From assembly GCF_026278245.1 (NCBI RefSeq), contig NZ_CP111079.1, positions 4,646,501 through 4,710,500 of the forward strand: DNA of 64,000 bases, given 5' to 3'. Positions 1-64,000 of this stretch are shown here, piece after piece (position 1 is the first letter of the stretch; each line of letters starts with the position of its first letter). The notes under the pieces are model-generated. The model was not told the DNA's origin, ran no database searches, and saw only the letters and a list, made by a program, of their open reading frames with translations. Source of the DNA: Pontibacter kalidii. Lineage in GTDB: Bacteria > Bacteroidota > Bacteroidia > Cytophagales > Hymenobacteraceae. The translations under genes and the position numbers were made by a program.

Positions 1-160
1 CAATAATCATATTTTTCCTCGCTTCTCTTTGGATTTAGGGTTGCAAATTTAAACAATCTTATACTTAATAATCAACTTGTTTGCTAAATATTTATCAAAC
101 AGCCTTGTTTTAGCCAGGAAAGCAGGGGAAAAGCCCTTAATTAGCCTCTCCCACGGCTTT

Positions 161-1300
161 TTACTTTAACATGGCCCTGGATATAACAAGCTTCTGTATC
201 TCGCTGGTTCCTTCACCTATGGTGCAAAGCTTTGCGTCGCGGTAGTACTTCTCAGCCGGGTAGTCTTTGGTAAAGCCATAGCCGCCAAAGATCTGCACCG
301 CCTCGTTGGCTACCCTTACCGATACTTCGGAGGCATACAGCTTGGCCATGGCCGATTCCTTGTTCACGTTCAGCCCACGGTTTTTCATGTCGGCGGCCTG
401 GTAGGTGAGCAAAGAGGCCGCCTCTACCTCGGTGGCCATGTCGGCCAGCTTAAAGGCAATGCCCTGGAAGCTGGAGATAGGCTTGTTGAACTGGTGGCGC
501 TCTTTCGAGTAAGCCAGCGCGGCATCCAATGCGCCCTGCGCAATGCCCAGCGAAAGTGCAGCAATCGAGATACGGCCGCCATCGAGCACCTTCATCGCCT
601 GAACGAAGCCATCGCCCACCTCACCCAGGATCTGGTCTTTGTGCACGCGGCAGTCTTGGAAGATAAGCTCCGTGGTCTCAGAGGCACGCATGCCCAGTTT
701 GTCTTCCTTGCGGCCGGCGCTAAAGCCCTCGGTGCCTTTCTCGATCACGAAAGCGGTCATGCCATGGGAGTCGCCTACCTCGCCAGTGCGCACGATCACC
801 ACCGCCACATTGCCCGACTTGCCGTGCGTGATAAAGTTCTTGGCGCCGTTGATCACCCAGTAGTCGCCGTCCTGCACCGCCACGGTGCGCATGTTGCCCG
901 CGTCTGAGCCCGTGTTTGGCTCCGTCAGGCCCCAGGCCCCGATCCACTCGGCGGTGGCTAGCTTAGGCAGGTACTTTCTTTTCTGCTCCTCGTTGCCGAA
1001 AGCCAGGATGTGGCCGGTGCAAAGCGAGTTATGCGCGGCCATAGAAAGGCCGATGGAGCCATCGATCTTGGAAAGTTCCGCGATGGCCGTAACGTACTCC
1101 AGGTAACCAAAGCCTGAGCCGCCATACTCTGCTGGCACGAGCACCCCCATCAGCCCCAGCTCTCCGAGTTTTTTAAATACCTCTACCGGAAACTCCTGAG
1201 ACTCGTCCCACTCCCGCATTTTAGGCTTGATGTGCTTGGCGCCAAAGTCACGGACCATGTCCGCAATCATGCGCTGGTTTTCTGTTGTTTTTAATTCCAT
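161..1300 (-). CDS. Acyl-CoA dehydrogenase
   Basis: FAD-dependent acyl-CoA dehydrogenase of 379 aa, the usual family length, oxidising an acyl-CoA to the trans-2-enoyl-CoA and passing electrons to ETF. The sequence shows the N-terminal helical domain, the FAD-binding middle segment GLTEPNTGSDAG (residues 124-135) and the C-terminal IGEGTSEIQ. The Glu near residue 363 in that last motif is the usual catalytic base of short/branched-chain members. The chain length and substrate cannot be read from sequence; a short-chain or glutaryl/isovaleryl-type enzyme is plausible. It is transcribed alone, divergently from the PHP phosphatase gene, across a 246-bp gap. Confidence 0.93.
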   Translation of the reverse strand: MELKTTENQRMIADMVRDFGAKHIKPKMREWDESQEFPVEVFKKLGELGLMGVLVPAEYGGSGFGYLEYVTAIAELSKIDGSIGLSMAAHNSLCTGHILAFGNEEQKRKYLPKLATAEWIGAWGLTEPNTGSDAGNMRTVAVQDGDYWVINGAKNFITHGKSGNVAVVIVRTGEVGDSHGMTAFVIEKGTEGFSAGRKEDKLGMRASETTELIFQDCRVHKDQILGEVGDGFVQAMKVLDGGRISIAALSLGIAQGALDAALAYSKERHQFNKPISSFQGIAFKLADMATEVEAASLLTYQAADMKNRGLNVNKESAMAKLYASEVSVRVANEAVQIFGGYGFTKDYPAEKYYRDAKLCTIGEGTSEIQKLVISRAMLK

Positions 1301-1546
1301 GTATAGTTTTGGGTTGTTAATTAAGGTGATGCGTAGCTTGTATAACGGTTTTGCCCTATCCGTTGTTTACAAAGCTATATAAATAAGGGCGGAGCAACAA
1401 TCATCTATATAGATTTAATCGTATGTAATAGAGCCGACTGCATGGCGGTAGCTTTATTTTGACCGTGATTTTAATTTCTGTTATTTTGAGGATTGTTTTG
1501 CTGTGCTGCCCTTTGCAGCAGGGCCACAGGAATCGGTTTGGGTAAG

Positions 1547-2296
1547 ATGATACAGTTTTTGAAGAACCTGTTTGGAGGGAATGAGCCTGCGCTGGAGGTC
1601 TCGCTTGGCGAGCTTGGCGCGGATATGCATTCGCACATTCTTCCGGGCATAGACGACGGCTCCGAAAGCCTGGCGCAGTCGCTGGAACTCGTGCAGGGGA
1701 TGAAGGAGCTGGGCTACCGCAAACTGATCATGACGCCGCACATCATGAGCGACTTCTACAAAAACACGCCGGAGATTATTCGCGAGAAGCTGCAGCTGCT
1801 GCGGCAGGCGGTAAAAGAGGCGGGTATAGAGATAGAGCTGGACTGCGCGGCGGAGTATTACCTGGACGAGGGCCTGCTCGATAAGCTCGACAACGATGAG
1901 GAGCTGCTGACCTTCGGCAAGAACTATCTCTTGTTCGAGACATCGTTCCTGAATGAGCCCCTGAACCTGCGGGAGACGATCTTTAAGATGCGCTCCAAGG
2001 GGTACCAGCCCGTGCTGGCGCACCCGGAGCGGTACACGTATTTCTATGGCAAGTTCGAGGAACTGGTGGCACTACGGGAGCATGGCGTGCTGTTTCAGCC
2101 CAACCTCAACTCGTTGGTCGGCTACTACTCCCCCGGTGCCAGGGATGTGGCCGAGCGGTTGGTAGAGCAGGGCTTAGTTGATTTTCTGGGCACCGACACC
2201 CATGGCATGAAGCATATCGCCACTTTGCACAAGGTGCTCGGTTCTAAGTACCTGGTTAAGGCACTGGCCTTGCCGCTGCGCAACAGGCAGCTCTAA
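1547..2296 (+). CDS. PHP-domain tyrosine-protein phosphatase (CpsB/CapC/YwqE-like)
   Basis: About 249 aa from the ATG at 1547. The frame opens 18 codons earlier at 1493, but those residues look unlike the family and the conserved part starts right after this Met. It is a metal-dependent PHP-fold phosphatase: DMHSHILPGIDDGS near the N-terminus, CAAEYYLDE in the middle, LAHPERY and LGTDTHG towards the C-terminus supply the metal-binding His/Asp residues. Characterised relatives dephosphorylate bacterial tyrosine kinases that control capsule or exopolysaccharide export. No kinase or polymer locus is next to it here, so that role is inferred. It is followed after 36 bp by an NAD-dependent reductase gene on the same strand. 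Confidence 0.85.
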   Translation: MIQFLKNLFGGNEPALEVSLGELGADMHSHILPGIDDGSESLAQSLELVQGMKELGYRKLIMTPHIMSDFYKNTPEIIREKLQLLRQAVKEAGIEIELDCAAEYYLDEGLLDKLDNDEELLTFGKNYLLFETSFLNEPLNLRETIFKMRSKGYQPVLAHPERYTYFYGKFEELVALREHGVLFQPNLNSLVGYYSPGARDVAERLVEQGLVDFLGTDTHGMKHIATLHKVLGSKYLVKALALPLRNRQL

Positions 2297-2332
2297 TTTT
2301 ACCTCATTTCATACGCTATACTTCCACAAACC

Positions 2333-3325
2333 ATGGTATTTGTAACGGGCGGCAGTGGCCTGATCGGCAGTTTTCTGATTCCGGAGCTCTTGCAGCGCGG
2401 GCACCAGGTAAAGGCGCTTTACCGCAACCAAATACCCGCTGTGGCCGGTGCAGACCAGGTGCAGTGGGTGGAGGGCGATATCCTGGACCCGGCCCTGCTG
2501 CGCGAGGCGCTGGTGGGTGTGAAGTATGTTTTCCATAGTGCCGGCTTGGTGTCGTACGCGCCGCAGGACGGAGAATTGCTGAAACAGGTGAACATAGAGG
2601 GCACCGCCAACCTGGTGGATGCCTGCCTGGAGGCCGGAGGTATAAAGCTCTGCCACGTGAGCTCGATCGCGGCGGTTGGCCGGCCCAAAAACACGGAGGT
2701 GCTCAACGAGGACGCCAAGTGGGACCCTGCGGCAGAGGTATCGGCTTATGCCAGCTCCAAGTACTTTGGGGAACTGGAAGTATGGCGCGGCGTGGCCGAG
2801 GGGTTGGATGCCGTTATCGTGAACCCCTCGATTATACTTGGCCCCGCCGACTGGAGCCGCAGCAGCACTCAACTGTTCCGGTACGTGTACAACGAACGCC
2901 CCTTTTATACCGCTGGCGAGGCCAACTTCGTGGATGTGCGCGATGTGGTGGAGGCTATGCTGCGCCTCGCCTTCTCGGACTTATCCGGGGAAAGGTTTAT
3001 CCTGAATGCGGAGCGGGTGAGCTACAAGAATTTTTTTGAGAAGGCGGCAGCCTGCTTCGGCAAGAGAGCGCCAGGCATGAGAGTGCCGTCGGCGCTGGCA
3101 GAAGTGGTGTGGCGGCTGGAGCATGCCCGCGCCTGGCTTACGGGCGCCCGCCCGCTCATCACCAAAGACACGGCCCGGGTATCCCGGAAAACCCACTTCT
3201 TCAGCAACGATAAGCTGCGGAAGGCGATCGGGTTTGAGTTCAGACCTGTTTCAGAGTCAGTGAATTGGGTTTGCCGGGAGTTGCAGGGGCAAATGAGCGC
3301 TGGCAGTCTGCAAGGGGGTAAATAA
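2333..3325 (+). CDS. NAD(P)-dependent epimerase/dehydratase (extended SDR)
   Basis: 330 aa extended short-chain dehydrogenase/reductase. The N-terminal nucleotide-binding motif TGGSGLIGSFL is at residues 4-14 and a SAYASSKYFGELEV segment holds the YxxxK catalytic pair. Overall it resembles dihydroflavonol-4-reductase-like and NDP-sugar epimerase-like proteins of Bacteroidota; the substrate is unknown. It lies 36 bp after the PHP phosphatase gene and 64 bp before the TPR gene, so all three may be co-transcribed. Confidence 0.85.
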   Translation: MVFVTGGSGLIGSFLIPELLQRGHQVKALYRNQIPAVAGADQVQWVEGDILDPALLREALVGVKYVFHSAGLVSYAPQDGELLKQVNIEGTANLVDACLEAGGIKLCHVSSIAAVGRPKNTEVLNEDAKWDPAAEVSAYASSKYFGELEVWRGVAEGLDAVIVNPSIILGPADWSRSSTQLFRYVYNERPFYTAGEANFVDVRDVVEAMLRLAFSDLSGERFILNAERVSYKNFFEKAAACFGKRAPGMRVPSALAEVVWRLEHARAWLTGARPLITKDTARVSRKTHFFSNDKLRKAIGFEFRPVSESVNWVCRELQGQMSAGSLQGGK

Positions 3326-3389: not shown

Positions 3390-4787
3390 ATGAAAGAAAA
3401 CTTTGACGAACACAGCGAGGAGCTGGAACTGATACAGCGTTACGAGCGCATGCTCGGCAACAACGAAGCGGCTTTCTTCGACCTCACCGATTTTGAGTAT
3501 ATCATAGATCATTATACCGCAAACTTTGAATACAAGAAGGCGCTGGCGGCCTGTAACTCGGCCCTGGTGCAGTACCCGTTCTCTACGGAGCTGCAGATAG
3601 ACAAGGCGCAGCTGCTGGCCATGTCGGGTAGCTTCGAGGAGGCCCTTGTGCTGATTAATAAAGTGGCGGAGGTGGAGCCCGAGAACGCGGATGTGCAGCT
3701 GACGCGCGGTATTATCTATACCCAACGGGGGGAATTCCGCGATGCCATCGACTATTTTAAGAAGGCGCTGGCTTACGCTGATGACCGCGACGATATATAC
3801 TTCAACATTGCCCTGGCCTACCAGACCTGGGGCAAGCTGTCGTCGGCGGTGAAGTATTACAAGAAATGCGTGGAGCTGAACCCCGAGAACGAGGCAGCTA
3901 TGCAGGAGATACTCTACTGCCTGGATGTGACCAATACCGTGAGCGAGAATGTACCCTTCTTCCAGAAGTTTGTGGACGACGAGCCCTACTCGTATGTGGC
4001 CTGGTTTAACCTGGGCAACGTGTACAATAAGATGGGCGCCTACGATAAGGCCATTGCCGCCTACGACTACGCCACCATCATCCGCCCGGACTTTATCACG
4101 GCCTACAACAACATGGCCAACGCCCTGGTATACATGGGCGAGTATACCAAGGCCATCGAGGCCTTCAACGCCATGATCGAGCATGGGGAGCCGAACGCTG
4201 AGATCTACTGTAACATTGGCGAGTGCTATGAGAAAATGCAGCAATGGGACCTCTCGCGGCGCTACTACCAGAAGTCCGTGGACCTGGACCCGGAGATGGA
4301 CGAAGCCTGGTTCGGCATCGGTGTCATACTGGATGCACAGGGAAAGTGGTACGAGGCAGTGCACTTCTTCAAGAAAGCCGTGGAGCTGTACGACGACAGC
4401 GCCGATTACTGGGTGGCCCTGGCCGGTGCCGAATATCACGTAGGCCATGTGGTGTCGGCGCTGGAGAGCTATGAGCGGGCATCCGAGATCCGGCCCGACG
4501 ATAAGAATATCTACCTGAACTGGTCGGTTATACTTTATGAGCAGGGCAATTTTGAGGAGGCCACCGACATCATACTCAACGCCATAGAGCTGCAGCCAAA
4601 GGAGGCGGAGCTATACTATAGAGCCTGCGCCTACATGCTTTCTGCAGGAAAATACCGCGAAGCTTATAATTATCTGGAAAATGCGTTAATTTTGGACTTC
4701 GACAAGCACAGGCTGCTATTCGAGTTCTTTCCCGAGCTGGAGTCGCAGCGCGCATTAGCCCGATTAATAGATCAGTACCGCAAATAA
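3390..4787 (+). CDS. Tetratricopeptide repeat protein
   Basis: 465 aa built almost entirely of TPR units, about a dozen, from near residue 45 to 430. Typical A-x-x-x-G/A-x4-A-x-x-x-Y/F-x-x-A spacing recurs, for example in EAWFGIGVILDAQGKWYEA and YVAWFNLGNVYNKMGAYDKA. There is no signal peptide or membrane segment, so it is probably a cytoplasmic scaffold. The N-terminus (MKENFDEHSEELELIQRYE) is acidic. It ends 6 bp before the phosphosulfolactate synthase-like gene, which argues for coupled expression. No partner can be named from sequence. Confidence 0.88.
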   Translation: MKENFDEHSEELELIQRYERMLGNNEAAFFDLTDFEYIIDHYTANFEYKKALAACNSALVQYPFSTELQIDKAQLLAMSGSFEEALVLINKVAEVEPENADVQLTRGIIYTQRGEFRDAIDYFKKALAYADDRDDIYFNIALAYQTWGKLSSAVKYYKKCVELNPENEAAMQEILYCLDVTNTVSENVPFFQKFVDDEPYSYVAWFNLGNVYNKMGAYDKAIAAYDYATIIRPDFITAYNNMANALVYMGEYTKAIEAFNAMIEHGEPNAEIYCNIGECYEKMQQWDLSRRYYQKSVDLDPEMDEAWFGIGVILDAQGKWYEAVHFFKKAVELYDDSADYWVALAGAEYHVGHVVSALESYERASEIRPDDKNIYLNWSVILYEQGNFEEATDIILNAIELQPKEAELYYRACAYMLSAGKYREAYNYLENALILDFDKHRLLFEFFPELESQRALARLIDQYRK

Positions 4788-4793: not shown

Positions 4794-5576
4794 ATGAATT
4801 ATACCCTTAAGAGCATTCCGGAGCGCGCGGCCAAGCCCCGTGAGCGTGGATTTACCATGGCCATGGACAAAGGCCTGAGCGTACGGGAGGTGGAGGACTT
4901 CCTGGAGGTAGCCGGAGAGTACGTAGATATTGTAAAACTGGGCTGGGCCACGTCTTTCGTTACGCCTAACCTTACCAAGAAGCTGGATGTCTACAGGGCT
5001 GCCGGTATCCCAACCTATTTCGGAGGTACCTTGTTTGAGGCGTTCATCGCCCGCAATCAGTTCGAGGACTACCGCCGGGTGCTGGACAAGTACCAAATGA
5101 CGTTTGCCGAGGTATCGGATGGCTCGCTGGATATGCCGCACGACGAAAAGTGCGCGTACATCGCCAAACTGGCAGAGCAGGTAACGGTGCTGTCGGAGGT
5201 GGGCTCCAAGGATGCCGAGAAGATCATTCCGCCCTACATGTGGATCAGGCTGATGAAGGCGGAACTGGAGGCCGGCGCCTGGAAGGTGATCGGGGAGGCC
5301 CGCGAGGGAGGTAATGTAGGCCTGTTCCGCTCTACCGGCGAGGTGCGTAGCGGCCTGGTGGAGGAGATCCTGACGCAGGTGCCTTTCGAGAAGATCTTGT
5401 GGGAGGCCCCGCAGAAGGCGCAGCAGGTATGGTTTATCAAACTGTTGGGCGCCAACGTGAACTTGGGTAACATTGCGCCAAGCGAAGTTATTCCGCTGGA
5501 GACGATCCGCCTGGGCCTGCGTGGCGACACGTTCGACCACTTCCTGAACATGGAAAAGGCAGGACAGAAGATATAA
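4794..5576 (+). CDS. Phosphosulfolactate synthase-like protein (ComA family)
   Basis: 260 aa, the typical length for ComA, which adds sulfite to phosphoenolpyruvate to give (R)-phosphosulfolactate, the first step of coenzyme M synthesis in methanogens. A TIM-barrel-like pattern is visible: DIVKLGWATSFVT, GIPTYFGGTLFEAF, FAEVSDGSLDMP, VLSEVGSKD, KVIGEAREGG, ILWEAPQKAQQ and NVNLGNIAPSEVIPLE. Bacteroidota do not make coenzyme M. A role in supplying sulfonated precursors, for example for the sulfonolipids this phylum produces, is inference only. It sits between the TPR and PopT-like genes and its stop codon overlaps an AAGTATAA word. Confidence 0.8.
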   Translation: MNYTLKSIPERAAKPRERGFTMAMDKGLSVREVEDFLEVAGEYVDIVKLGWATSFVTPNLTKKLDVYRAAGIPTYFGGTLFEAFIARNQFEDYRRVLDKYQMTFAEVSDGSLDMPHDEKCAYIAKLAEQVTVLSEVGSKDAEKIIPPYMWIRLMKAELEAGAWKVIGEAREGGNVGLFRSTGEVRSGLVEEILTQVPFEKILWEAPQKAQQVWFIKLLGANVNLGNIAPSEVIPLETIRLGLRGDTFDHFLNMEKAGQKI

Positions 5577-5595
5577 AGTATAAAATTGAAAGTAT

Positions 5596-5633
5596 AAATT
5601 GCCCGTCGGTGTGGCCGCACGGGCAATTTTTTG
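5596..5633 (+). terminator. Rho-independent terminator after the ComA-like gene
   Basis: An 11-bp stem of AAATTGCCCGT with ACGGGCAATTT, a 12-nt loop and a T run. Two AAGTATAA words (5576-5583 and 5590-5597) stand between the stop codon and the stem; the second overlaps its base. Confidence 0.85.
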
Positions 5634-5673: not shown

Positions 5674-6627
5674 ATGGAAAGAAGATCGCTGAAAGAGTAT
5701 TTGTTGCTGTTCTCCAAAGGCATGGGCATGGGTGCTGCCGATGTGGTGCCCGGCGTCTCAGGCGGAACCATTGCCTTTATCACCGGCATCTACGAGGAGT
5801 TGTTGGGCTCCATTCGCTCTGTAAACGGGCAGGCCCTGAAGCTGCTGTTGCGCTTCGACCTGAAAGGGTTCTGGAAGCACATCAACGGGAACTTCCTGGT
5901 GGTGCTGCTGGCAGGAATCGGGGTGTCTTTCGCTTCCCTCTCAAGGCTGATTTTATACTTGCTAGAGTTTCACGCAGAGATGCTGTGGGCCTTTTTCTTT
6001 GGGCTGATCGTAGCCTCTGCTGTGGTGGTGGCCAAAAAGATTACCCGCTGGACCCTGGGCGTGGTGCTGGCCGGGCTGCTTGGCATTGCCATAGCCTATT
6101 ATATCACGGTGGCCACCCCGGCGCAAACGCCGGAGGCGTACTGGTTTGTGTTTTTGTCCGGTGCCATTGCTATCTGTGCTATGATTCTGCCGGGAATATC
6201 GGGTAGCTTTATACTTGTGCTGCTGGCTAAGTATGAGTACATCATGCTGGCGCTCAAGGATCTGAAGATAAGTATTATCCTTACGTTTGGGCTTGGCTGC
6301 GTTACCGGCATCCTTACTTTCTCGCATGTGCTGAACTGGATGCTCAGGAAGTACCATAACGTCACGGTGGCGTTGCTCACGGGCTTCATGGTCGGCTCCC
6401 TGAACAAGGTATGGCCCTGGAAACAAACGCTAGAAACCTACACCGACCGTCATGGCGAGGTGAAACCGCTGGTGCAGGAGAATGTGCTGCCAACCAATTA
6501 TGAGGCTATAACCGGTCATGATGCATACTTACTCTACGGTGCTCTGCTGGCCATTTTCGGGTTCCTGATGGTATACTTGCTGGACCGCTTCTCCAACGAT
6601 ACCGCTACCCAGCAGGTGCGGGTGTAA
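5674..6627 (+). CDS. DUF368 membrane protein, PopT-type polyprenyl-phosphate transporter
   Basis: 317 aa polytopic inner-membrane protein with about eight to nine hydrophobic segments. The family signature AADVVPGVSGGTIAFITGIYE lies near residues 21-41 and a second half-motif, ILPGISGSFILVLL, is near 173-186, the internal pseudo-repeat of DUF368. Characterised members recycle undecaprenyl phosphate across the membrane for peptidoglycan and surface polymer synthesis. That function is taken from the family and not shown here. It is followed after 18 bp by shikimate dehydrogenase. Confidence 0.9.
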   Translation: MERRSLKEYLLLFSKGMGMGAADVVPGVSGGTIAFITGIYEELLGSIRSVNGQALKLLLRFDLKGFWKHINGNFLVVLLAGIGVSFASLSRLILYLLEFHAEMLWAFFFGLIVASAVVVAKKITRWTLGVVLAGLLGIAIAYYITVATPAQTPEAYWFVFLSGAIAICAMILPGISGSFILVLLAKYEYIMLALKDLKISIILTFGLGCVTGILTFSHVLNWMLRKYHNVTVALLTGFMVGSLNKVWPWKQTLETYTDRHGEVKPLVQENVLPTNYEAITGHDAYLLYGALLAIFGFLMVYLLDRFSNDTATQQVRV

Positions 6628-6645
6628 CTCTCAAGTATAAATTAT

Positions 6646-7870: not shown

Positions 7871-8298
7871 GGTATATAAGATCTTTTGAGCGAGGTTTAA
7901 GATGATTTACAACTACTAAAATGCTTGCTGCGAAAGAAGAAAGCCTCCCGCCCGGGAGGCTTTACTTTTTTAGGGGGTTTATACTTCGTGTGATCTGTGA
8001 TTCTTTTGCTCTCTTCTTTTGGATGAGTAGCCGTTTATACTTTCATTCGTTGTCCTGCTAAAACTTCCCGCTTAAAGTATAAACGCACTTTCTGGACCCT
8101 GTCTGGTACTTAAATCAGTAAACTTTAAAATAATCATAGCAGGTGCAGCTGTTGCTGCTATGGTATTTTCCTATCTTTACTCGCAGAAGCGGGTCTTTCC
8201 CAGAGGCTTGGCCCCTTCCTGAAAATATTTTTTGCCTGCTTGCAACCTTAAGTGCCTGGCAGGAATCATAGTATAAACAAACGTAAAGCAGGCGGCAT
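7871..8298. other. Intergenic region upstream of the ECF sigma gene
   Basis: 428 bp without a gene. It holds the terminator at 7939-7970, three AAGTATAA/TTATACTT words (7979-7986, 8035-8042, 8075-8082), a small hairpin CATAGCAG...CTGCTATG at 8135-8162 and an imperfect promoter-like TATCTTTA just after it. I see no open frame with coding character. Confidence 0.6.
7939..7970 (+). terminator. Rho-independent terminator after the DUF1232 gene
   Basis: Ten-base-pair stem AAAGCCTCCC / GGGAGGCTTT with a 4-nt loop, followed by a T-rich tract. It is nearly symmetric and could also act on the other strand. Confidence 0.85.
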
Positions 8299-8877: not shown

Positions 8878-10531
8878 CAATAAGCGCGGAGGGCTGGAGG
8901 AGGAGTTCCGCCGCCGCATGCAGGACGCTGAGGCTTCTCCGTCCGCAGACCTTTGGGCCCGCATAGACCACAGCCTGACCGTGCAGGAAAACGGGCAGTA
9001 CAAGCGGGGAATGCTTTTTTACAGGCAGCTGGCAGCCGCTTGCGTGACGCTGCTGCTGATAGCGGGTGGTTTTGCCGCCTACTATTTTGGCGGCCCTGCC
9101 GTGGCGCCTGTGGCCCAGGTGGAGCAGCCAAACCGAACTTTCGCCGCCGTACAACCTGCCAGGGAAGAAGCCGCTGCTACCAACGAAGCCATTGCCGCCG
9201 CCATGCAGGAGCCAGCATCAATAGAGCCTAAAGCCTTAGCGAGCCAAATTATAGCCAGGGCCGCAAAAGCTGGCAAAGAGCCAGTGGCTGCAAGTATAAA
9301 GTCAGAGACTACTGCCAACATCACTGCCGTTGCCACTACTACAGCCGCTACCCCCGACCCTGGCGCCTGGCATAGCGTGCCGGCCGGCAAGTACGGCATG
9401 GCCCCTCAGAACGCGCGGGGAGGCCGCGAAAGTATGGATGCCCGTAGTATGTTCTCCAGGCTCGAAAGTATGAGCCGGGTGTTTACAGAGCGCCCAAGCG
9501 GTGCTTCCAGGTTTGTTGCTGGCGGAGCGCCTGCCCTCGCCGGAGCGTCACATGAGGCTCCGGAAGATTTCAGGACACTGAACGAGATCGTGATGAACCG
9601 CATGAAGCAGCTGAAGGCAGAGCAGGAGGCGGTGCAGCAGATGTATAAATCAGAGAAAAAAGCACTGGCTACCGCTGCTGCCGATACAGAAAAAGAGAAT
9701 ACATCTGCTGGGAGATGGTCTTTGGGGATGGCCTATGCACCGAGCTACTTTGAGCAAAACATCGGCATCCCTTCCCAGATGATGGGTCCCATGAACAGCT
9801 TTGCTTCGTTTGCCCCCGCCACAGCCATGCAGCAGTCGGCCCGCATGATGGACGAGGCCCGCGAGGAGCATGAGGAGGAAGTGGAACCCGGCTTCTCATT
9901 CGGCATAGAGGCCAAGGCGGGCTTTAGGCTGGGCAAAAAATGGAAATTGCTGAGCGGCTTGGGCTTTACACAAAACACCGCCCGCTCCAAATCCAGCTAC
10001 GTGATACAGCAGTTCTGGCGCAGGCCGGGCACAGAGCAGGCCGAGTCGCCGGGGGCCACCACGATCTTTGTGCCGTCGCTTAGCAGCAACTACGCCTCCG
10101 ACTCGCTTAGCGTGGCCAAAACCGACGAGTTTAACGTGCTGTACCGCTACCGCCACCTTACCGTGCCGGTGGGCGTGCAGTACGAGGGCAACCTGGGCAA
10201 AGACTGGTTCTGGTTTGCCGGCGGTGGCGTAGCGGCCAACATCCTGCTCCAGACGTCTATCCTGGCCTCTGCCGCCGAGGTGCGCGATACGGACTACGAA
10301 CTCAACGACGACAACTCCCCGTTCCGTAAGCTGCAGTGGTCTGGCAACGTAACTGCCGGTGTGGGCAAGCGCCTTTCCAACAACCTGTCCATTGCCATCG
10401 GGCCGGAGTACAGGGGATACTTCGATACGATGCTTTCTTCGCCGGAGAAGGCGCAGGCGCCGCAGGGCAAGCCCTACACCATGGGCTTCAACATGGCCCT
10501 GAACTACGACATAGGACCGGGCCGCAGATAG
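8861..10531 (+). CDS. Anti-sigma-like inner-membrane protein with C-terminal beta-barrel-like domain
   Basis: 556 aa. Residues 1-50 are charged and cytoplasmic in character (EEEFRRRMQDAEASPSADLWARID), followed by one transmembrane helix at about 55-76, then a long Ala/Thr/Gln-rich linker to about 290. The C-terminal 260 residues look like an outer-membrane beta-barrel domain: alternating strands such as SFGIEAKAGFRLGKKWKLLSGLGFT and LTVPVGVQYEGNLGKDWFWFAGGGVAANILL, ending MGFNMALNYDIG. The layout of cytoplasmic head, TM helix and sigma-gene overlap fits an anti-sigma factor. How a barrel-like tail coexists with an inner-membrane helix is unresolved; it may span the periplasm. Confidence 0.75.
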   Translation: MSSATNNKRGGLEEEFRRRMQDAEASPSADLWARIDHSLTVQENGQYKRGMLFYRQLAAACVTLLLIAGGFAAYYFGGPAVAPVAQVEQPNRTFAAVQPAREEAAATNEAIAAAMQEPASIEPKALASQIIARAAKAGKEPVAASIKSETTANITAVATTTAATPDPGAWHSVPAGKYGMAPQNARGGRESMDARSMFSRLESMSRVFTERPSGASRFVAGGAPALAGASHEAPEDFRTLNEIVMNRMKQLKAEQEAVQQMYKSEKKALATAAADTEKENTSAGRWSLGMAYAPSYFEQNIGIPSQMMGPMNSFASFAPATAMQQSARMMDEAREEHEEEVEPGFSFGIEAKAGFRLGKKWKLLSGLGFTQNTARSKSSYVIQQFWRRPGTEQAESPGATTIFVPSLSSNYASDSLSVAKTDEFNVLYRYRHLTVPVGVQYEGNLGKDWFWFAGGGVAANILLQTSILASAAEVRDTDYELNDDNSPFRKLQWSGNVTAGVGKRLSNNLSIAIGPEYRGYFDTMLSSPEKAQAPQGKPYTMGFNMALNYDIGPGRR

Positions 10532-13963: not shown

Positions 13964-13998
13964 GAATAGCCCGGCCAGCAAAGCCGGGCTATTTTTTT
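13964..13998 (+). terminator. Rho-independent terminator after the Kelch gene
   Basis: 11-bp perfect stem AATAGCCCGGC / GCCGGGCTATT, 7-nt loop, seven-T run. Confidence 0.92.
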
Positions 13999-14128
13999 AT
14001 ACTTGCCTGTAACCTAACTGGGCAGTAGCCGGTTATGCAGGTAGGATCTTTTGCCCTGGGTATAGCTAGACGTTGCATGGCATCAGGATACCTGGTACTT
14101 AGAATGATTTTCTGTAATGTAGTGCACT

Positions 14129-14274: not shown

Positions 14275-16302
14275 ATGGATTTTAGACTTACATCAGAGTT
14301 CGAGCCGACCGGCGACCAGCCCAAGGCCATTGCACAACTCACAGAAGGTATAAATAACGGGGAGCCTGCACAGGTTTTGCTGGGTGCCACAGGAACCGGT
14401 AAAACCTTTACCATGGCCAACGTGATCAAGAACACCGGCAAGCCGACGCTGGTGCTGTGCCACAACAAGACGCTGGCCGCCCAGTTGTACGGCGAGTTCA
14501 AGCAGTTCTTTCCCGATAACGCCGTGGAGTACTTTATCTCCTACTACGACTACTACCAGCCGGAGGCCTACATTGCTTCTTCAGATGTATTTATCGAGAA
14601 AGACCTTCAAATAAACGAGGAGATTGAGAAACTGCGGTTGCATACCACTTCGGCGCTGCTGTCGGGTCGCCGCGACATCGTGGTGGTGGCCTCCGTGTCG
14701 TGCATCTACGGTATCGGCAACCCCGAGGAGTTTGGCAAGAACGTGATTCACCTGGCGCCCGGGCAGCGCTATAGCCGTAATAATTTATTATATACCTTCG
14801 TGCAGATCCTCTACAGCCGCACCGAGGCCGAGTTCACACGTGGAACATTCCGGGTGAAGGGCGACACGGTGGATATTTTCCCGGCTTACGCGGATTTTGC
14901 CTACCGTTTATACTTCTTCGGCGACGAGCTGGAGCAGATACACCGCATCGACCCGCAGTCGGGTAAAAAGCTGTCGGATGAGAAAGCCGTCACGCTGTAC
15001 CCGGCCAACCTCTTCGTAACCGGTAAAGACACGCTGCAGCAGGCCATCTCGGAGATTCAGTACGACATGGTGGCGCAGCATGAGTACTTTTTGAAGGAGG
15101 ACAGGCCGGCAGAAGCCAAGCGCATTAAGGAACGAACCGAGTTCGACCTGGAGATGATCCGCGAGCTGGGCTACTGCTCGGGTATCGAGAACTATTCCCG
15201 CTACTTCGACCGCCGCGCGCCGGGTGCCCGCCCGTTCTGTCTGCTCGATTATTTTCCGGACGACTTCCTGATGGTAATTGACGAGAGCCACGTAACGGTA
15301 CCGCAGGTGCGCGCCATGTGGGGAGGCGACAGATCGAGGAAAGTGGCGCTGGTAGAGTATGGCTTCCGGCTCCCGGCCGCCATGGACAACCGCCCGCTCA
15401 CCTTCAACGAGTTCGAGAGTATGATGCACCAGGTGGTGTTTGTGAGCGCCACGCCCGGCGATTACGAGATACAGAAATCCGAAGGGGTTATTGTAGAGCA
15501 GATCATCCGGCCAACCGGCCTGCTGGACCCTGAGATCGAGATCAGGCCAAGTACAAACCAGGTGGACGACCTGCTCGATGAGATCGATGAGCGTGTGAAG
15601 CAAGGTGCCCGCGTGTTGGTGACCACGCTTACCAAGCGTATGTCGGAGGAGCTGACCAAGTACCTGGAGCGCCTCAACATAAAGGTAAAGTACCTGCACT
15701 CCGAGGTGAAAACGCTGGACCGGGTGGAGATTCTGCGGGAACTGCGCTTAGGCATCATTGACGTGCTGATAGGTGTGAACCTGCTGCGCGAAGGCCTGGA
15801 CTTACCGGAAGTGAGTTTAGTGGCTATATTGGATGCGGATAAAGAAGGCTTCCTGCGCGACCAACGCTCGCTGATACAGACTATGGGCCGCGCCGCCCGA
15901 AACGAGAAAGGCAAAGTGATTATGTATGCCGACCGAATGACGGGCTCCATGCAACGCGCGATCGATGAGACCAATCGCCGGCGCGCTACGCAGATGGCCT
16001 ATAACGAAGAGCACGGCATCACCCCACGCACCATCCTTAAGACAAGTGACGAAATTCACGGCCAAACCTCTGTTGCAGACTCTAAAAAGAAAGAGGTGAA
16101 AATGTACGCCGGTCCGGAGGAAGTGTCTATCGCTGCCGAGCCGATTATCCAGACCATGAAACGCGAGGAGCTGGAAAAGCTGGTCAAGAAGACCGAGAAG
16201 CAGATGGAGGCCGCCGCCAAAGACCTCGACTTTCTGCAGGCCGCCAAGTATAGAGACGAGCTGGCGGAGCTGCGAAAGCTGCTGAAGACGAAGCGAGACT
16301 AA
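14275..16302 (+). CDS. uvrB: Excinuclease ABC subunit B
   Basis: 675 aa, full length. UvrB is the damage-verifying helicase-like subunit of nucleotide excision repair, loaded by UvrA and then binding UvrC. Walker A is GATGTGKTFT (residues 38-47). The damage-probing beta-hairpin region YYDYYQPEAYI follows near residue 90, and the helicase C-terminal motifs appear in GVNLLREGLDLPEVSLVAILDADKEGF. The UVR domain that contacts UvrC closes the protein (LEKLVKKTEKQMEAAAKDLDF). It is transcribed alone. Confidence 0.98.
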   Translation: MDFRLTSEFEPTGDQPKAIAQLTEGINNGEPAQVLLGATGTGKTFTMANVIKNTGKPTLVLCHNKTLAAQLYGEFKQFFPDNAVEYFISYYDYYQPEAYIASSDVFIEKDLQINEEIEKLRLHTTSALLSGRRDIVVVASVSCIYGIGNPEEFGKNVIHLAPGQRYSRNNLLYTFVQILYSRTEAEFTRGTFRVKGDTVDIFPAYADFAYRLYFFGDELEQIHRIDPQSGKKLSDEKAVTLYPANLFVTGKDTLQQAISEIQYDMVAQHEYFLKEDRPAEAKRIKERTEFDLEMIRELGYCSGIENYSRYFDRRAPGARPFCLLDYFPDDFLMVIDESHVTVPQVRAMWGGDRSRKVALVEYGFRLPAAMDNRPLTFNEFESMMHQVVFVSATPGDYEIQKSEGVIVEQIIRPTGLLDPEIEIRPSTNQVDDLLDEIDERVKQGARVLVTTLTKRMSEELTKYLERLNIKVKYLHSEVKTLDRVEILRELRLGIIDVLIGVNLLREGLDLPEVSLVAILDADKEGFLRDQRSLIQTMGRAARNEKGKVIMYADRMTGSMQRAIDETNRRRATQMAYNEEHGITPRTILKTSDEIHGQTSVADSKKKEVKMYAGPEEVSIAAEPIIQTMKREELEKLVKKTEKQMEAAAKDLDFLQAAKYRDELAELRKLLKTKRD

Positions 16303-16379
16303 GGCAAGTCAGAGAGTTTAGGAGTTGGAGAGACGCAATTGCGTCTTAAGAGTTAGAAAGTATAAAAAGGAAGTATAAA

Positions 16380-16685: not shown

Positions 16686-16711
16686 CAGCGTTATACCTAC
16701 TACTTTTATAC

Positions 16712-33475: not shown

Positions 33476-33510
33476 GTATAACTGCTATTAAATAAGCATA
33501 AAGTAAAGAG

Positions 33511-56370: not shown

Positions 56371-56381
56371 TAAAGTATAAA

Positions 56382-56473: not shown

Positions 56474-59400
56474 ATGGCATTTGCGAAAAACAAAAAGCTA
56501 ACTCAGGACTTCTCAAAAGTTACGATCAGCTTGGCTTCTCCGGAGTCAATCCTGGAGCGTTCCAACGGAGAGGTAGTAAAACCTGAGACCATAAACTATA
56601 GAACCTATAAGCCTGAAATGGGTGGCCTGTTCTGCGAAAGAATTTTCGGGCCCGTAAAGGACTGGGAATGCCACTGCGGAAAGTATAAAAGAATCAGATA
56701 CAAAGGCATCATCTGCGACCGTTGCGGCGTGGAGGTGACCGAAAAGAAAGTGCGCCGCGAGCGTATGGGCCACATTGAATTGGTGGTTCCAGTAGCGCAC
56801 ATCTGGTACTTCAAATCCCTTCCAAACAAAATAGGTTATCTGCTGGGTTTGCCAACCAAGAAGCTTGACCAGATCATCTATTATGAAAGATATGTAGTTA
56901 TCCAGCCAGGCATTTTGGCAGAGGACGGCGTGAACACGCTGGACTTCCTGACAGAAGATGAGTACCTGGACATGGTGGATAAGCTGCCACGCGAGAACCA
57001 GGTGTTGGATAACAACGACCCGAACAAGTTCATCGCCAAAATGGGTGCTGACGCTCTGCAAATGCTGCTGGAGCGCATTAACCTGGATGACCTTTCTTAC
57101 GAGCTGCGTCACGCTGCTGCACATGAGACTTCTCAGCAACGTAAAGCAGAGGCGTTAAAGCGTCTACGTGTTGTGGAGGCTTTCCGTGATGCGACAACAA
57201 GAATTGAGAACAGACCAGAGTGGATGATCATCCGCATGGTGCCCGTTATTCCGCCGGAGCTTCGTCCGCTTGTTCCGTTGGATGGTGGCCGTTTCGCGAC
57301 CTCTGACTTGAACGACCTGTACCGACGCGTTATTATCCGTAACAACCGTCTGAAGCGTCTGATCGAGATCAAAGCGCCTGAGGTAATCCTTCGTAATGAG
57401 AAGCGTATGCTCCAGGAAGCGGTAGACTCCCTGTTCGACAACTCACGTAAAGTGAACGCTGTTCGTGCAGAAGGCAACCGTGCGCTCAAGTCACTTTCTG
57501 ACATGCTGAAAGGTAAGCAGGGTCGTTTCCGTCAGAACTTGCTTGGTAAGCGTGTGGACTACTCCGGCCGTTCGGTAATTGTGGTTGGTCCTGAACTGAA
57601 GCTGCACGAGTGCGGTCTGCCAAAGAACATGGCAGCTGAGCTCTTCAAGCCGTTCATCATCCGCAAGCTGATTGAAAGAGGAATCGTTAAGACGGTAAAG
57701 TCAGCAAAGAAAATAGTTGACCGTAAGGACCCTGTCGTTTGGGATATCCTGGAGAACGTGCTGAAAGGCCACCCGGTACTCCTAAACCGTGCCCCTACCC
57801 TACACAGATTAGGTATTCAGGCCTTCCAGCCAAAACTGATTGAAGGTAAGGCGATCCAGCTGCATCCACTGGTGTGTACGGCATTCAACGCCGACTTTGA
57901 CGGTGACCAGATGGCGGTGCACGTTCCACTGGGACCTGCTGCTGTACTGGAAGCCTCGATGCTGATGCTTGCTTCGCACAACATCCTGAACCCTGCAAAC
58001 GGTGCCCCTATTGCGGTGCCGTCTCAGGACATGGTGCTAGGGTTATACTATGTAACCAAAGGAAAGCGCAGCACAGAGAATGAAACAATAGCCGGCGAAG
58101 GCATGAGCTTCTACTCTGCGGAGGAAGTGATCATCGCCATCAACGAAGGAAGAATATCGAAGCATGCATACATCAAGGTAAGAACCAAGGTGAGGAATGA
58201 GAAAGGCGAACTGGAACTGAAACTGATAGAGACAGTTGCCGGACGCGTTATCTTCAACCAGTTCGTGCCTGAGCAGGTAGGTTACCTGGATGAACTGCTG
58301 ACAAAGAAAAAACTGCAGCAGGTAATCTCCAGGGTGTTCAAAGAAACGGGCATGGCTCGTACTGCTCAGTTCCTGGACGATATCAAGACACTTGGATTCC
58401 AGTCTGCCTATAAAGGTGGTCTTTCAATGGGTCTGGGTGATATCAATATCCCGGCTGAGAAAGAAATTCTGGTTGAGCAGGCTAAGAAAGATGTAGATGC
58501 CGTTTGGCAGAACTACTCTATGGGTCTGATCACGGATAACGAGCGTTACAACCAGGTAATTGATATCTGGACACGTATCAACAACCAGATCACTGAAACG
58601 CTGATGCGCCGCCTGGAGAATGAGGATCAGGGCTTCAACTCTATCTTCATGATGATGCACTCCGGAGCCCGTGGTTCAAGAGAGCAGATCCGTCAGCTGG
58701 GTGGTATGCGTGGTCTGATGGCCAAGCCTCAGAAATCGCTTCAGGGATCAGTAGGCGAGATCATCGAAAACCCGATCCTTTCTAACTTTAAGGAAGGACT
58801 GGATGTAATCGAGTACTTCATCTCTACCCACGGTGCACGTAAAGGTCTTGCCGATACGGCCCTTAAAACGGCTGACGCCGGTTACCTGACCCGTCGTCTG
58901 GTAGACGTGTCTCAGGACGTGATCGTGAACGAGGAAGATTGCGGTACGCTGCGTGGCCTGGAAGTAAGTGCGCTGAAAGACAACGAGGACATCGTGGAGT
59001 CGCTGTCAGAGCGAATTCTCGGTCGAGTGGCTGTACATGATGTGTATGATCCAATCACGAATGAGCTGATCGTTGAGTCTGGTACAGAGATCACGGAGGA
59101 CGTTGCGCGTGACATTGAGAATACGGCAATTGAGTCTGTGGAAATACGCTCTGTGCTGACTTGTGAGTCTAAGCGTGGCATATGTGCCAAGTGCTACGGC
59201 CGTAACTTGGCAACAGGATTTATGGTGCAGAAGGGAGAGGCTGTTGGTGTAATTGCCGCACAGTCTATCGGTGAGCCTGGTACACAGCTGACACTCCGCA
59301 CCTTCCACGTAGGTGGTACAGCTTCTAACATTGCGGTAGAGGCAACCATCATGGCGAAGTTCGGCGGTAAGATCGAGTTCGAGGACATCCGCTCACTGGA

Positions 59401-60790
59401 TACAGTGAATAACGAAGGGGAGCCGGTGAAAGTAGTAATGGGTCGTTCAGGCGAGCTTAAAGTCGTAGACCCTAACACGGGCAAACTGCTGATCAGCAAC
59501 CACGTGCCGTATGGCTCCTTCCTGCATGTAAATGAAGGACAGGTCGTAGAGAAGGGGGCTGTTCTATGTAATTGGGACCCATACAATGCGGTTATACTTT
59601 CAGAGTTTGACGGTGAGATTTCTTACGAGTCGATTATTGAAGGTGTAACATACCGTGAGGAGTCTGATGAGCAGACAGGATACCGGGAGAAAGTGATTGT
59701 TGATACAAAAGACAAAACACAGAACCCGGCCATCGTGGTTACTCCGAAGAATGGCGAGCCAAAAGGCTATAACATTCCGGTGGGAGCTCACCTGACAGTA
59801 GAGAATGGTGAGAAGATCAAGGCTGGCCAAATCCTGGTGAAGATCCCGCGTGCGATCGGTAAAACACGAGACATCACGGGTGGTCTGCCACGCGTTACTG
59901 AATTGTTTGAGGCCCGAAACCCATCTAACCCGGCGGTAGTGTCTGAGATTGATGGTGTGGTAACCTATGGCAGTGTGAAGCGCGGTAACCGTGAAATCTT
60001 CATTGAGTCTAAGGACGGTGTGAAGAAGAAGTATATGGTGCCGCTTTCTAAGCACATCCTGGTGCAGGATAATGACTTTATCCGTGCCGGTATGCCTCTG
60101 TCAGACGGTGCTATTACGCCAACAGACATTCTGAATATCCAGGGACCGGGTGCCGTGCAAGAGTACCTGGTAAATGAGATACAGGAAGTATATCGTCTGC
60201 AGGGTGTGAAAATCAACGACAAGCACATAGAGGTGGTAGTTCGCCAGATGATGCAGAAAGTTGTTGTCGTTGACCCGGGTGATACAAGCTTCCTGGAGCA
60301 TCAGACCGTGGATAAGATCACCTTCATGGAGGAGAACGACCACATTATCGACATGAAAGTTGTGGAAGATGCCGGTGACTCAACCAACCTGAAGCCGGGC
60401 CAGATAGTAACGCCACGCAGGCTGCGCGACGAGAACTCCAGCCTGAAGCGCCGCGACCTAAAACTAGTGACCGTGCGTGACGCACAGCCATCTGTTTCAC
60501 GTCCGACGCTGCAAGGTATCACACAGGCTTCCTTGGGTACGCAAAGCTTTATCTCTGCGGCCTCGTTCCAGGAAACAACAAAAGTACTGAGCGAAGCAGC
60601 GATCAAAGGTAAGGCGGATGAACTGCTCGGCCTGAAAGAGAACGTGATCGTAGGCCACCTGATTCCTGCTGGTACTGGTCTGAGAGAATACCAGAATCTG
60701 ATAGTAGGAAGCAAGGAAGAGTACGAGGCGCTTGTCGAGTCGAAAAAAACATCGGCAAAAACAAGACAGCAGGAACTACAAAACAAATAA
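56474..60790 (+). CDS. rpoC: RNA polymerase beta' subunit
   Basis: 1438 aa from the ATG at 56474 (an upstream TTG adds eight residues). Zinc finger 1 [20 protein letters not shown] (about residues 66-85), active-site [12 protein letters not shown] (residues 472-483), trigger-loop region [12 protein letters not shown]-like and zinc site 2 [16 protein letters not shown] are present. Complete. A DUF3467 gene follows 6 bp later. Confidence 0.99.
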
Positions 60791-61632: not shown

Positions 61633-61650
61633 TCATAGCGTTTTAATACA

Positions 61651-62118
61651 ATGAGAAAAGCAAAGCCAAAAAGTAGAATACTCCTTCCTGATCCTAAATA
61701 TAAAGAGACCCTGGTAACACGTTTCGTTAACTACCTGATGGAAGACGGAAAGAAAAGTGTTGCCTACGGTATCTTCTACGATGCTGTAGAAATAGTAGAG
61801 CAAAGAACAAAAGAAAACGGTCTTGAGACTTGGAAGAAGGCATTGAACAACATCATGCCTAGCGTCGAAGTTAAAAGCCGCAGGGTTGGGGGTGCTACTT
61901 TTCAAGTGCCGACTGAGGTTCGACCGGACCGCAGAGTATCTCTTGGTATCAAGTGGATGATATCATACGCTCGCAAGAGAGGTGAGAAGACAATGAAAGA
62001 CAGATTAGCAGGTGAGATTATTGCAGCTGCTAAGGGTGAAGGTGCTGCCGTGAAGAAAAAAGACGATACGCACAGAATGGCAGAAGCGAACAAAGCATTC
62101 TCACACTTTAGATTTTAA
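61651..62118 (+). CDS. rpsG: 30S ribosomal protein S7
   Basis: 155 aa. [22 protein letters not shown] and the [22 protein letters not shown] signature. Nucleates the 30S head. It starts 18 bp after rpsL and stops 3 bp before fusA. Confidence 0.99.
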
Positions 62119-62121
62119 TCA

Positions 62122-64000
62122 ATGGCAAGAGATTTAAGATATACAAGAAATATCGGTATTGCCGCACATATTGATGCTGGTAAAACCACTACTACGGAAC
62201 GTATTCTTTACTATACGGGTAAATCACACAAGTTAGGTGAGGTACACGAAGGTGGTGCTACTACAGACTGGATGGAGCAGGAGCAGGAGAGAGGTATTAC
62301 CATTACTTCAGCCGCTGTAACTGTAAACTGGCCATACAGAGGTAATGATTACCATATCAACATCATTGATACGCCTGGACACGTGGACTTTACCGTAGAG
62401 GTGAACCGTTCCCTGCGTGTACTGGATGGTCTGGTATTCCTATTTAGTGCAGTAGATGGTGTAGAACCACAGTCTGAAACGAACTGGCGACTGGCAGACA
62501 ACTATAAAGTAGCCCGTATCGGTTTCGTAAATAAAATGGACCGTTCAGGCGCTGATTTTCTAGCCGTTTGTAAGCAAGTAAAAGAAATGCTTGGCAGCAA
62601 TGCTGTAGCACTTCAGTTGCCAATTGGATCAGAAGATAACTTCAAAGGTGTAGTTGACCTGGTGAACTTCCGTGGTATAGTTTGGAATGAATCAGATAAG
62701 GGTATGACCTTTACTGAAGTGCCTATTCCTGATGATATGATGGAAGAAGCTGAAGAATACAGAGAGAAGCTGCTGGAAGCTGTAGCTGAGTACGATGAGT
62801 CGTTGATGGAAAAATACTTTGACGATCCAAACTCTATAACAGAGGATGAAATTCTTGCTGCGCTTCGAGCTGCTACCATTGACCTGGCAATTGTGCCGAT
62901 GCTCTGCGGTTCTTCATTCAAGAACAAAGGGGTTCAGACAATGCTGGATTATGTGATGGCGCTTTGTCCATCTCCATTAGATAAAGAAAGCATCAAAGGT
63001 ACAAATCCTGATACTGGTGAAGAAATAGCTCGCAAACCAAGTGTTAATGAGCCATTTGCTGGTCTTGGATTCAAGATCGCAACAGATCCATATGTAGGGC
63101 GTCTTTGCTTTGTTAGAGCTTATTCAGGGGTTCTTGAGTCAGGTTCTTATGTGTTTAATACACGTTCGAACAACAAGGAGCGTATCTCCCGTATTTTCCA
63201 GATGCATGCCAATAAGCAGAACCAGATTGAAAGGCTGGAGGCTGGAGATATCGGTGCAGTAGTAGGCTTTAAGGACATCAAAACCGGTGACACGCTGTGC
63301 GATCAGAATGCTAAAATCGTACTGGAGTCTATGGAATTCCCTGAGCCGGTTATTGGATATGCCATTGAGCCTAAGTCTCAGGCTGACTCAGATAAAATGG
63401 GTATGGCTATTGCCAAACTTATTGAAGAGGATCCGACGCTGCAGGTTAACACAGACGAGGAAACTGGTCAGACGATCCTGCGTGGTATGGGTGAACTTCA
63501 CCTGGAGATCATCATTGACCGTATGAAGCGTGAGTTCAAGGTAGAACTGAACCAGGGTGCGCCGCAGGTGGCTTACAAAGAGACTATCACGAAAAGCGTT
63601 GAGCACCGTGAGGTATTCAAGAAGCAGTCGGGTGGTCGTGGTAAGTTTGCCGACATCGTGTTCGAAATGGGACCACGTGAGGACGGCAAGCAAGGCCTGG
63701 AGTTCGTTAACGGTATCGTGGGTGGTGTGATTCCAAGAGAATTCATCCCAGCTGTGCAGAAAGGCTTCGAAGATGCTATGAAGAACGGCATTCTGGCTGG
63801 CTTCCCGATAGACTCCATGAAGGTGCGTCTGTTCCATGGTTCTTTCCACGATGTGGACTCTGATTCACTATCATTTGAATTAGCTGCTCGTCAAGGTTTC
63901 AAAGAGGCTGGTAAGCAGTGTGCCCCTAAACTTCTGGAGCCAATTATGGCCGTTGACGTTGTTACACCAGACGAGTACACTGGTCCGGTAACAGGCGACT
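62122..64000 (+). CDS. fusA: Elongation factor G (3' truncated by window edge)
   Basis: Open from the ATG at 62122 to the right edge, 626 codons so far, without a stop. Opening [24 protein letters not shown] contains G1; [15 protein letters not shown] is the effector region; [12 protein letters not shown] is G3 and [10 protein letters not shown] is G4. Translocase for mRNA-tRNA movement. About 70 residues are missing. Confidence 0.98.

Follow-up and report, generated by a model that had tools for sequence, protein, structure and literature searches.

Occurrence of the word in the window and the genome

We examined a 64,000-nucleotide stretch of the Pontibacter kalidii chromosome (contig NZ_CP111079.1, positions 4,646,501-4,710,500 of 4.98 Mb; hereafter the window), in which the octamer AAGTATAA/TTATACTT occurs in 49 exact copies, 26 on the plus strand and 23 on the minus strand. 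An initial annotation, made without database searches, had reported almost 50 copies against about one expected by chance; all 12 coordinates that it gave are right, and the expectation computes to 1.4 copies by base composition and 2.0 under an order-2 Markov model. AAGTATAA is the top-ranking 8-mer of the window. The same annotation held one-base variants to be equally frequent, which is true of the 7-mer AAGTATG (50 occurrences) but not of AAGTATAG (16) or AAGTATAC (14), each reaching about one third of the exact count. The whole 5.05 Mb genome contains 5,271 copies (2,681 plus, 2,590 minus), approximately one per kb, versus 112 (51 plus, 61 minus) for the reversed word used as a control.

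Genes were called with a simple script of our own that misses some genes, so some copies described here as intergenic may be coding; the names rpoB, rpoC and aminopeptidase come from our reading of the sequence and the gene order. Single intergenic copies lie at 59..66 (-), 13997..14004 (-), 20657..20664 (-), 22096..22103 (+), 22145..22152 (-), 29899..29906 (+), 37409..37416 (+), 37548..37555 (+) and 44186..44193 (-). Others are grouped or abut genes: 7979..7986 (-), 8035..8042 (-) and 8075..8082 (+) form an intergenic cluster, 16358..16365 and 16371..16378 (both +) an intergenic pair, 6633..6640 (+) directly follows a stop codon, and 56373..56380 (+) comes right after the gene read as rpoB (52498-56370, +). 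The copy at 5576..5583 (+) begins at the final base of gene 4794-5576 (+) and makes a same-facing pair with the intergenic 5590..5597 (+). Three more sit at gene boundaries, namely 16706..16713 (-) at the edge of gene 16712-17251 (-), 33474..33481 (+) overlapping the end of gene 32168-33475 (+), which also holds 32186..32193 (+), and 38404..38411 (-) at the 3' end of gene 38404-39498 (-), which also holds 38889..38896 (+) and 39119..39126 (-).

Within called plus-strand genes we located 2832..2839 (-) in 2333-3325, 4528..4535 (-) in 3390-4787, 5953..5960 and 6209..6216 (both -) in 5674-6627, 9292..9299 (+) in 8861-10531, 14908..14915 (-) in the uvrB-like gene 14275-16302, 26002..26009 (+) in 25646-26245, 41839..41846 (+) in 41516-42100, 42149..42156 (-) in 42097-42669, 46264..46271 (-) in 44866-47409, which we read as an M1 aminopeptidase, and 56681..56688 (+) and 59592..59599 (-) in 56474-60790, read as rpoC. 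Within minus-strand genes lie 19593..19600 (+), 19769..19776 (-) and 20047..20054 (+) in 18276-20483, 21634..21641 (+) in 21472-21726, 22739..22746 (+) in 22178-23287, 24754..24761 (-) in 23310-25229, 30459..30466 (+), 30739..30746 (-) and 31118..31125 (+) in 29969-31156, 35772..35779 (+) in 34366-37341, and 44452..44459 (+) in 44278-44778. The aminopeptidase has its nearest homologue in P. flavimaris (91% identity), with which a tree concurs. A cobalamin riboswitch (97.8 bits) occupies 25340-25543 on the minus strand.

Outside the window, 19 sampled 20 kb chromosome stretches contain 8-36 copies each (median 20). The two poorest are also the lowest in GC among the samples, as acquired islands would look. 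The second contig of 73.8 kb, taken as a plasmid, has 4 copies versus 3.9 expected, that is, background.

Shape, placement and orientation

The shape of the word was analysed in 464 kb of samples, of which 20 kb are plasmid. Here AAGTATAA occurs 449 times versus 14.9 expected and AAGTATAAA 286 times versus 4.7, with little information in the flanks beyond one base on either side. In the substitution analysis, where AAGTATAA counted 510 versus 15.0 expected (34-fold), any single change in letters 1-6 lowered the enrichment to 1.0-4.2-fold, while position 7 tolerates G (10.7-fold) and position 8 tolerates G (17.0) and C (7.9). The core is therefore AAGTAT followed by two purines.

A published account (PMC4390886) names Chi sites, HIP palindromes and uptake sequences as the three classes into which extremely abundant bacterial words fall, and the word fits the uptake sequences best. 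It fails the palindrome test, since AAGTATAA differs from its own reverse complement, and AAGTATAC, half of the palindrome AAGTATACTT, is enriched only 7.9-fold against 34-fold for AAGTATAA. Cyanobacterial HIP1, as described there, is likewise an extremely abundant octamer that is gained and lost among relatives, but it is palindromic and tied to methyltransferases (PMC4390886). In favour of a functionless mutational or repair bias, of the methyltransferase-linked kind discussed for HIP1, HIP-like palindromes are abundant in some Hymenobacteraceae loci, and the words, as a property of whole genomes, can come and go. We nevertheless judge this improbable. The word is a non-palindrome, sharp at A, T and G alike, which repair of methylated cytosine alone could not write; the conservation of its coding copies exceeds background in four of five species pairs (see below); and the plasmid shows no excess, although it may be a recent arrival.

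Codon use was ruled out as the cause by exchanging codons among synonymous positions inside each gene. Coding sequence holds 212 copies versus 18.7 after shuffling (standard deviation 4.1, maximum of 50 shuffles 27), and intergenic DNA 283 versus 10.6, while the reversed word gives 1 versus 6.4 and 6 versus 5.0, respectively. The related words AACTATAG and AGGTATAG of other Pontibacter species, described below, behave alike (101 versus 10.6 in genes and 139 versus 3.3 between them for AACTATAG; 190 versus 11.2 and 162 versus 3.1 for AGGTATAG). ATC is the usual isoleucine codon (4,058, with 1,910 ATT and 1,486 ATA), as the initial annotation had stated, and its proposal of selection (or drive) acting on the DNA word as such, beyond codon bias, is supported by these counts. 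Of the two deflating outcomes that it named, a genome-wide count near the Markov expectation and codon bias alone without intergenic enrichment, neither occurred.

Some copies travel in a dispersed repeat. A flank similar to another place in the 484 kb sample was found for 109 of 505 sampled copies, but not for the other 396. Examples (26300-26544 of the window and samples such as L002:14779-14890 and L013:10348-10386) are hairpin-rich, intergenic and resemble repetitive extragenic palindromic (REP) elements, carrying several words, often in the same direction, in the linkers between hairpins. Three window copies have repeat-type flanks: the intergenic 26300..26307 (-), whose flanks resemble 8 places in the sample, the intergenic 26537..26544 (-), whose flanks resemble 10, and, weakly, 14908, with one similar flank. 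That the word is merely a by-product of such a REP-like repeat draws on these 109 copies and on the hairpin-rich examples, but is very improbable given the 396 copies without a similar flank and the 206 repeat-free copies in called coding sequence; hitch-hiking as the main cause is largely refuted by the unique flanks. The repeat explains part of the close clusters, not the 396 unique-flank copies. Separately, the pooled own-genome samples (L001-L020 and the window) contain 18 occurrences of a 12-mer family around TAAGAATTAATAAGTAAG, probably a local tandem array.

For placement we used the 387 copies left once those near repeats were removed. Of these, 166 are intergenic (1.83 per kb), 15 lie at gene edges, and the in-gene copies (0.52 per kb) comprise 96 in sense and 110 in antisense orientation. 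Density is 5.5 per kb in convergent gaps, 3.1 in tandem and 1.4 in divergent ones; the word is therefore sparse on the promoter side and dense at gene ends. AAGTATA[AG] peaks in the 20 bases after stop codons, bearing out the reported clustering at stops, and within 60 bases after stops its orientation is near even (59 versus 52). The association with terminator hairpins turned out to be weak: 26 of the 283 intergenic words lie inside a hairpin, compared with 984 of 8,800 control positions, and 73 of 283 lie within 15 bp of one, compared with 1,550 of 8,800. The likeness drawn to neisserial terminators did not hold, as opposite-facing words form close pairs less often than same-facing ones do and hairpins contain no more words than the controls.

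The gene-end preference might suggest an RNA-level signal, a terminator or processing site, for which density is indeed highest after stops and in convergent intergenic DNA. We find this scarcely credible, since orientation is near even both in genes and after stops, and hairpin interiors are no richer in words than the controls; in particular, the near-equal use of sense and antisense disfavours RNA processing, one of the roles listed in the initial annotation. Segregation, another of these, is disfavoured in its replication-oriented form because the sampled stretches lack strand skew: those with positive GC skew carry 111 plus and 91 minus copies and the others 123 and 121, with the reservation that the skew is weak and the origin was not located. 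DNA uptake fits best among the roles it had listed.

The same counts bear on a Chi-like signal, at which AddAB would pause while processing broken ends, so that selection for repair would enrich the word and changes in AddB would produce the differing words of related species. Chi sites are abundant non-palindromic octamers and one of the three known classes (PMC4390886), and a PDDEXK-nuclease frame of about 970-1,040 amino acids (aa), read as AddB-like, is present in 40 of 40 genomes. The word, however, shows no replication orientation bias in the samples, prefers intergenic DNA and has dialects inside one genus. Dialect-diagnostic columns are not unusually common in AddB (12 of 446 variable columns versus fractions of 0-0.049 in five control genes, a weak test), and word-less species retain the AddB-like gene. 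A thirty-fold enrichment and a preference for gene ends are unlike Chi. Altogether a Chi-like role appears unlikely.

Just as doubtful is a mark of genome identity or nucleoid structure read inside the cell by a protein of chromosome organisation, segregation or self/non-self defence. Words spread across the sampled chromosome with the plasmid at background would suit such a mark, as would the excess of same-facing pairs less than 30 bp apart (29 versus 7), which persists after repeats are removed. Yet the samples reveal no orientation or replichore pattern, three lineages of the tree lack the word or have it only weakly, and an essential architecture protein is not expected to give drifting dialects.

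Dialects among related species

Three words, AAGTATAA, AACTATAG and AGGTATAG, dominate different Pontibacter species. Whole-genome counts of AACTATAG reach 6,292 in P. populi, 6,288 in P. fetidus, 7,489 in P. burrus and 8,208 in strain Tf4, are intermediate in the uncultured isolate 903 (2,617), P. vulgaris (907) and P. harenae (476), and range from 28 to 315 in the remaining 33 of 40 genomes. AGGTATAG occurs 3,608-5,222 times in 10 of the 40 genomes and 106-751 times in the other 30. Among 24 congeners, 12 have 1,201-7,030 copies of AAGTATAA and 12 have 276-788, the latter still exceeding their reversed-word counts (108-299). Named AAGTATAA species carry 0.96-2.04 AAGTATA[AG] per kb in 42.5 kb each, except P. 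harenae with 0.52. Weaker words were found in strain E15-1 (GGTAT[AG]G; CTATACC 57 versus 9.5) and Botryobacter (GAGGTAGA, 18 versus 1.5). Beyond these, Hymenobacter UV11 is rich in GGGGTAGGG (69 versus 0.9 in 102 kb), and CTACCCC or CCTACCCC is enriched in three further Hymenobacter loci (L060, L067, L068). All these words share TA as their centre, and AACTATAG, AGGTATAG and GGGGTAGGG are dialects that differ by one or two bases.

No such word was detected in 86-103 kb each of P. diazotrophicus, P. silvestris, P. qinzhouensis, P. beigongshangensis and P. pamirensis. In all five, AAGTATA[AG] is at most in faint excess (19 versus 7.4, 24 versus 13.2, 8 versus 5.7, 6 versus 3.9 and 21 versus 8.0, in the order named); P. 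ummariensis shows weak word signals only. We also noticed AATTATTC enriched in P. beigongshangensis (24 versus 2.5) and P. qinzhouensis (18 versus 3.2), and CCTCCGGA in the former (28 versus 3.1), perhaps a separate repeat or word of that clade. AAGTATAA was also counted in 14 further families of the order; it does not exceed the reversed control in 13 of them and counts 266 versus 265 in one, and 8-40 kb from each yielded no TA-centred word of the Pontibacter type.

Several other words surfaced in these comparisons. Four of the other-family samples (G026, G027, G029, G030) have different enriched words, among them the 9-mer GAGTACTCC with 217 counts over both strands in 20 kb (L233, G027:C1:1-20000), probably a large tandem array. 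In 14 kb of an uncultured Bacteroidetes contig (L100), CTCCGTTA (15 versus 0.2) and CCTGTAGC (12 versus 0.2) are enriched, probably a local repeat. HIP-like palindromes or near-palindromes appear in single Hymenobacteraceae loci, namely GGGGCCCC (L081), ACCTAGGT (L085), CACCTAGG (L076) and TGCCGGCA (L036), with counts there doubled because both strands were counted.

The dialects track the species phylogeny around a constant TA core. On a tree of 40 rows, in which Botryobacter and E15-1 were scored word-less, the AGGTATAG species form one clade (support 100), the AACTATAG species together with isolate 903 form another (support 100), and AAGTATAA is scattered across the remainder with word-less lineages interspersed; the tree requires 8 changes in total versus a shuffled mean of 21.8. 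Isolate 903, at the base of the AACTATAG clade, carries two dialects at about 1.3 per kb each.

Of 77 coding word sites, 2 hold two dialects at an identical position. At one, a threonine codon of rpoB, all ten AGGTATAG species read ACC, while the seven AAGTATAA species that have their word there read ACT; at the other, eight species carry AAGTATAA and two carry AACTATAA, with Leu/Val. Species with another dialect or none (P. ummariensis, Botryobacter, P. populi, E15-1 and P. anaerobius) also show AAGTATAA/G or AGGTATAA at the rpoB site. Since the protein constrains the letters at that site and off-dialect species match there as well, this is weak support. Over five species pairs, coding words are conserved in 105 of 158 cases versus about 73 expected from coding 8-mers, above background in four pairs, one of them only slightly (12/19 versus 0.51). 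Genic AAGTATA[AG] conservation in a word-less pair is unremarkable (4/9). Together with the intergenic counts given below, these figures point to steady gain and loss with upkeep, individual sites not being fixed.

Presence of a word also goes with genome size. The 30 named genomes with a strong word measure 3.8-5.2 Mb, and the 8 in which the word is weak or absent 5.2-6.5 Mb; the medians are 4.6 and 5.9 Mb (p = 2e-5, kinship ignored). Sizes were rounded, P. harenae (weak word) and Hymenobacter were excluded, and E15-1 and Botryobacter, with weaker words of their own, were grouped as having none. If transformation purges inserted DNA, larger genomes where the word is weak or missing are what one would expect.

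A candidate uptake sequence and its putative machinery

On sequence evidence, AAGTATAA is most likely a DNA uptake sequence with a reader distinct from the type IV pilus. The word has neither the palindromic form of HIP words nor, in the samples, the orientation of Chi sites, and it has the uptake-sequence features that can be tested on sequence, except even spacing. To our knowledge, the only families with described uptake words are Pasteurellaceae and Neisseriaceae, and both possess type IV pili. The uptake signal sequences of Pasteurellaceae are short words found about once per kb, with a sharp core and softer flanking letters. The Pontibacter word matches them in density and sharp core, but it is another word in another phylum, and pilus machinery was not found in Pontibacter. 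Neisseriaceae DNA uptake sequences are 10-12 letters long, whereas the Pontibacter word has 8-9 and a Bacteroidota host. Their dialects number 2,245-5,918 copies (PMC3630211), and the similar copy number and density in P. kalidii thus support the uptake reading. They resemble the Pontibacter words in being short, non-palindromic and present in thousands of copies, in having a constant core (CTG there, TA here) and dialects congruent with the core-genome tree, and in that one genome has two dialects and some relatives have none (PMC3630211). Pontibacter differs in having no convincing match to a pilus motor or ComP-like pilin and in not favouring opposite-facing close pairs, and its uptake role is a prediction. 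As the pilus-based reading system was not found, we do not file the word as a member of the Neisseriaceae/Pasteurellaceae type.

Within the same phylum there is a parallel in Riemerella. R. anatipestifer is competent although a pilus homologue was not found, and its transformation needs ComEC, DprA, ComF, RecA, a helix-hairpin-helix (HhH) protein and predicted outer-membrane proteins (PMC8459023). TonB mutants have reduced transformation (PMC8383284), and R. columbina prefers its own DNA (PMC7965970). Pontibacter shares the phylum, ComEC, DprA, the HhH protein and the want of a pilus homologue (PMC8459023, PMC7965970). Unlike the Pontibacter word, 10-mers from the published Riemerella k-mer table are A-rich, with a role on which the authors do not commit themselves (PMC8459023, PMC7965970).

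We surveyed competence genes and possible readers. ComEC and DprA matches are present in 40 of 40 genomes, although stops interrupt the comEC and dprA frames of G071, and G070 has a short ComEC frame. A frame of 304-352 aa with HhH_3 matches likewise occurs in 40 of 40, the P. kalidii protein having three HhH motifs. Two candidates for the specificity determinant were rejected. DUF5689, a domain of Riemerella RS04920, was detected in 15 of 40 genomes and falls into two size classes, neither of which tracks the word; at the five loci examined it belongs either to a gene of about 360-410 aa whose neighbours resemble SusD/SusC genes (one unclear) or to a much longer frame. ComEC is very variable, with 683 of 872 alignment columns varying across the compared dialect groups (stretches L141-L180), and has no dialect-diagnostic column by the criterion used.

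In the mechanism we propose, a putative surface or periplasmic receptor would recognise the word on free double-stranded DNA, which would cross the outer membrane without a type IV pilus. The HhH (ComEA-like) protein and then ComEC would handle the incoming DNA, with DprA and RecA assisting its recombination. Because fragments bearing the word would enter more often, recombination would write new copies where the harm is small, at gene ends and in tolerant codons. A shift of receptor specificity in a lineage would let the words drift to a new dialect, and once uptake was lost they would decay. Natural competence, word-biased uptake, the receptor, the drive and the cause of word loss are all inferred here.

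A number of observations weigh against this reading. Two concern the competence genes: ComEC, DprA and the HhH protein are present also in word-less species, so that these genes do not separate word-bearing from word-less species, and in Pontibacter sp. HSC-14F20 (G071) the comEC and dprA matches span stops, yet the genome has 5,041 copies of AGGTATAG; the stops may reflect recent loss or assembly errors. Others concern the reader. The pilus/secretion ATPase family PF00437 gave only short matches (38-66 of 370 positions) in 39 of 40 genomes, two of 40 barely passing the cut-off of 24.9 bits (25.3 and 25.0 bits), and the one such frame examined looks like a superfamily-1 helicase. The ComP_DUS pilin (PF16732) had no match in P. 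kalidii and 18 congeners and was below cut-off in 2 of 10 other-family genomes, and the GspH pilin (PF12019) had none in 29 genomes including those 19, the named genomes G039-G077 not being searched for either. No receptor was found: the RS04915 barrel of Riemerella is reported from Flavobacteriaceae only (PMC8459023), DUF5689 does not track the word, and no neighbour of the HhH gene (in P. kalidii and P. populi) tracks it in 20 stretches, one just 10.6 kb long.

Words are clustered (coefficient of variation of spacing 1.2-1.3), no more evenly spaced than random. The turnover of intergenic words resembles that of neutral DNA, with 65 of 108 conserved versus 58 expected from all intergenic 8-mers and 69 from AT-rich ones, and in the AACTATAG pair the conservation of coding words does not exceed background (7/24 versus 0.32). 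One 5.5 Mb congener (G021) has 2,537 copies, contrary to the genome-size trend. The best-ranked open-licence papers yielded neither uptake or transformation data for Pontibacter nor a report of this word, or of any uptake word in Pontibacter or Cytophagales.

We put at about even the chances of a broader proposal, in which Hymenobacteraceae would possess a self-DNA recognition system for transformation, evolved apart from pilus-based systems and built on a putative surface or outer-membrane reader of a TA-centred octamer. Pontibacter would have three strong dialects of it and Hymenobacter a further one, with weaker dialects in Botryobacter and E15-1; the dialects would act as barriers between lineages, and loss of the system would lead to genome growth. 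If so, sequence-specific uptake would have arisen independently in Bacteroidota, a group without a known outer-membrane DNA entry route, and the word-binding protein would be a tractable handle on that route. It might also explain the own-DNA preference of R. columbina, and recombination barriers between species would be readable directly in their genomes.

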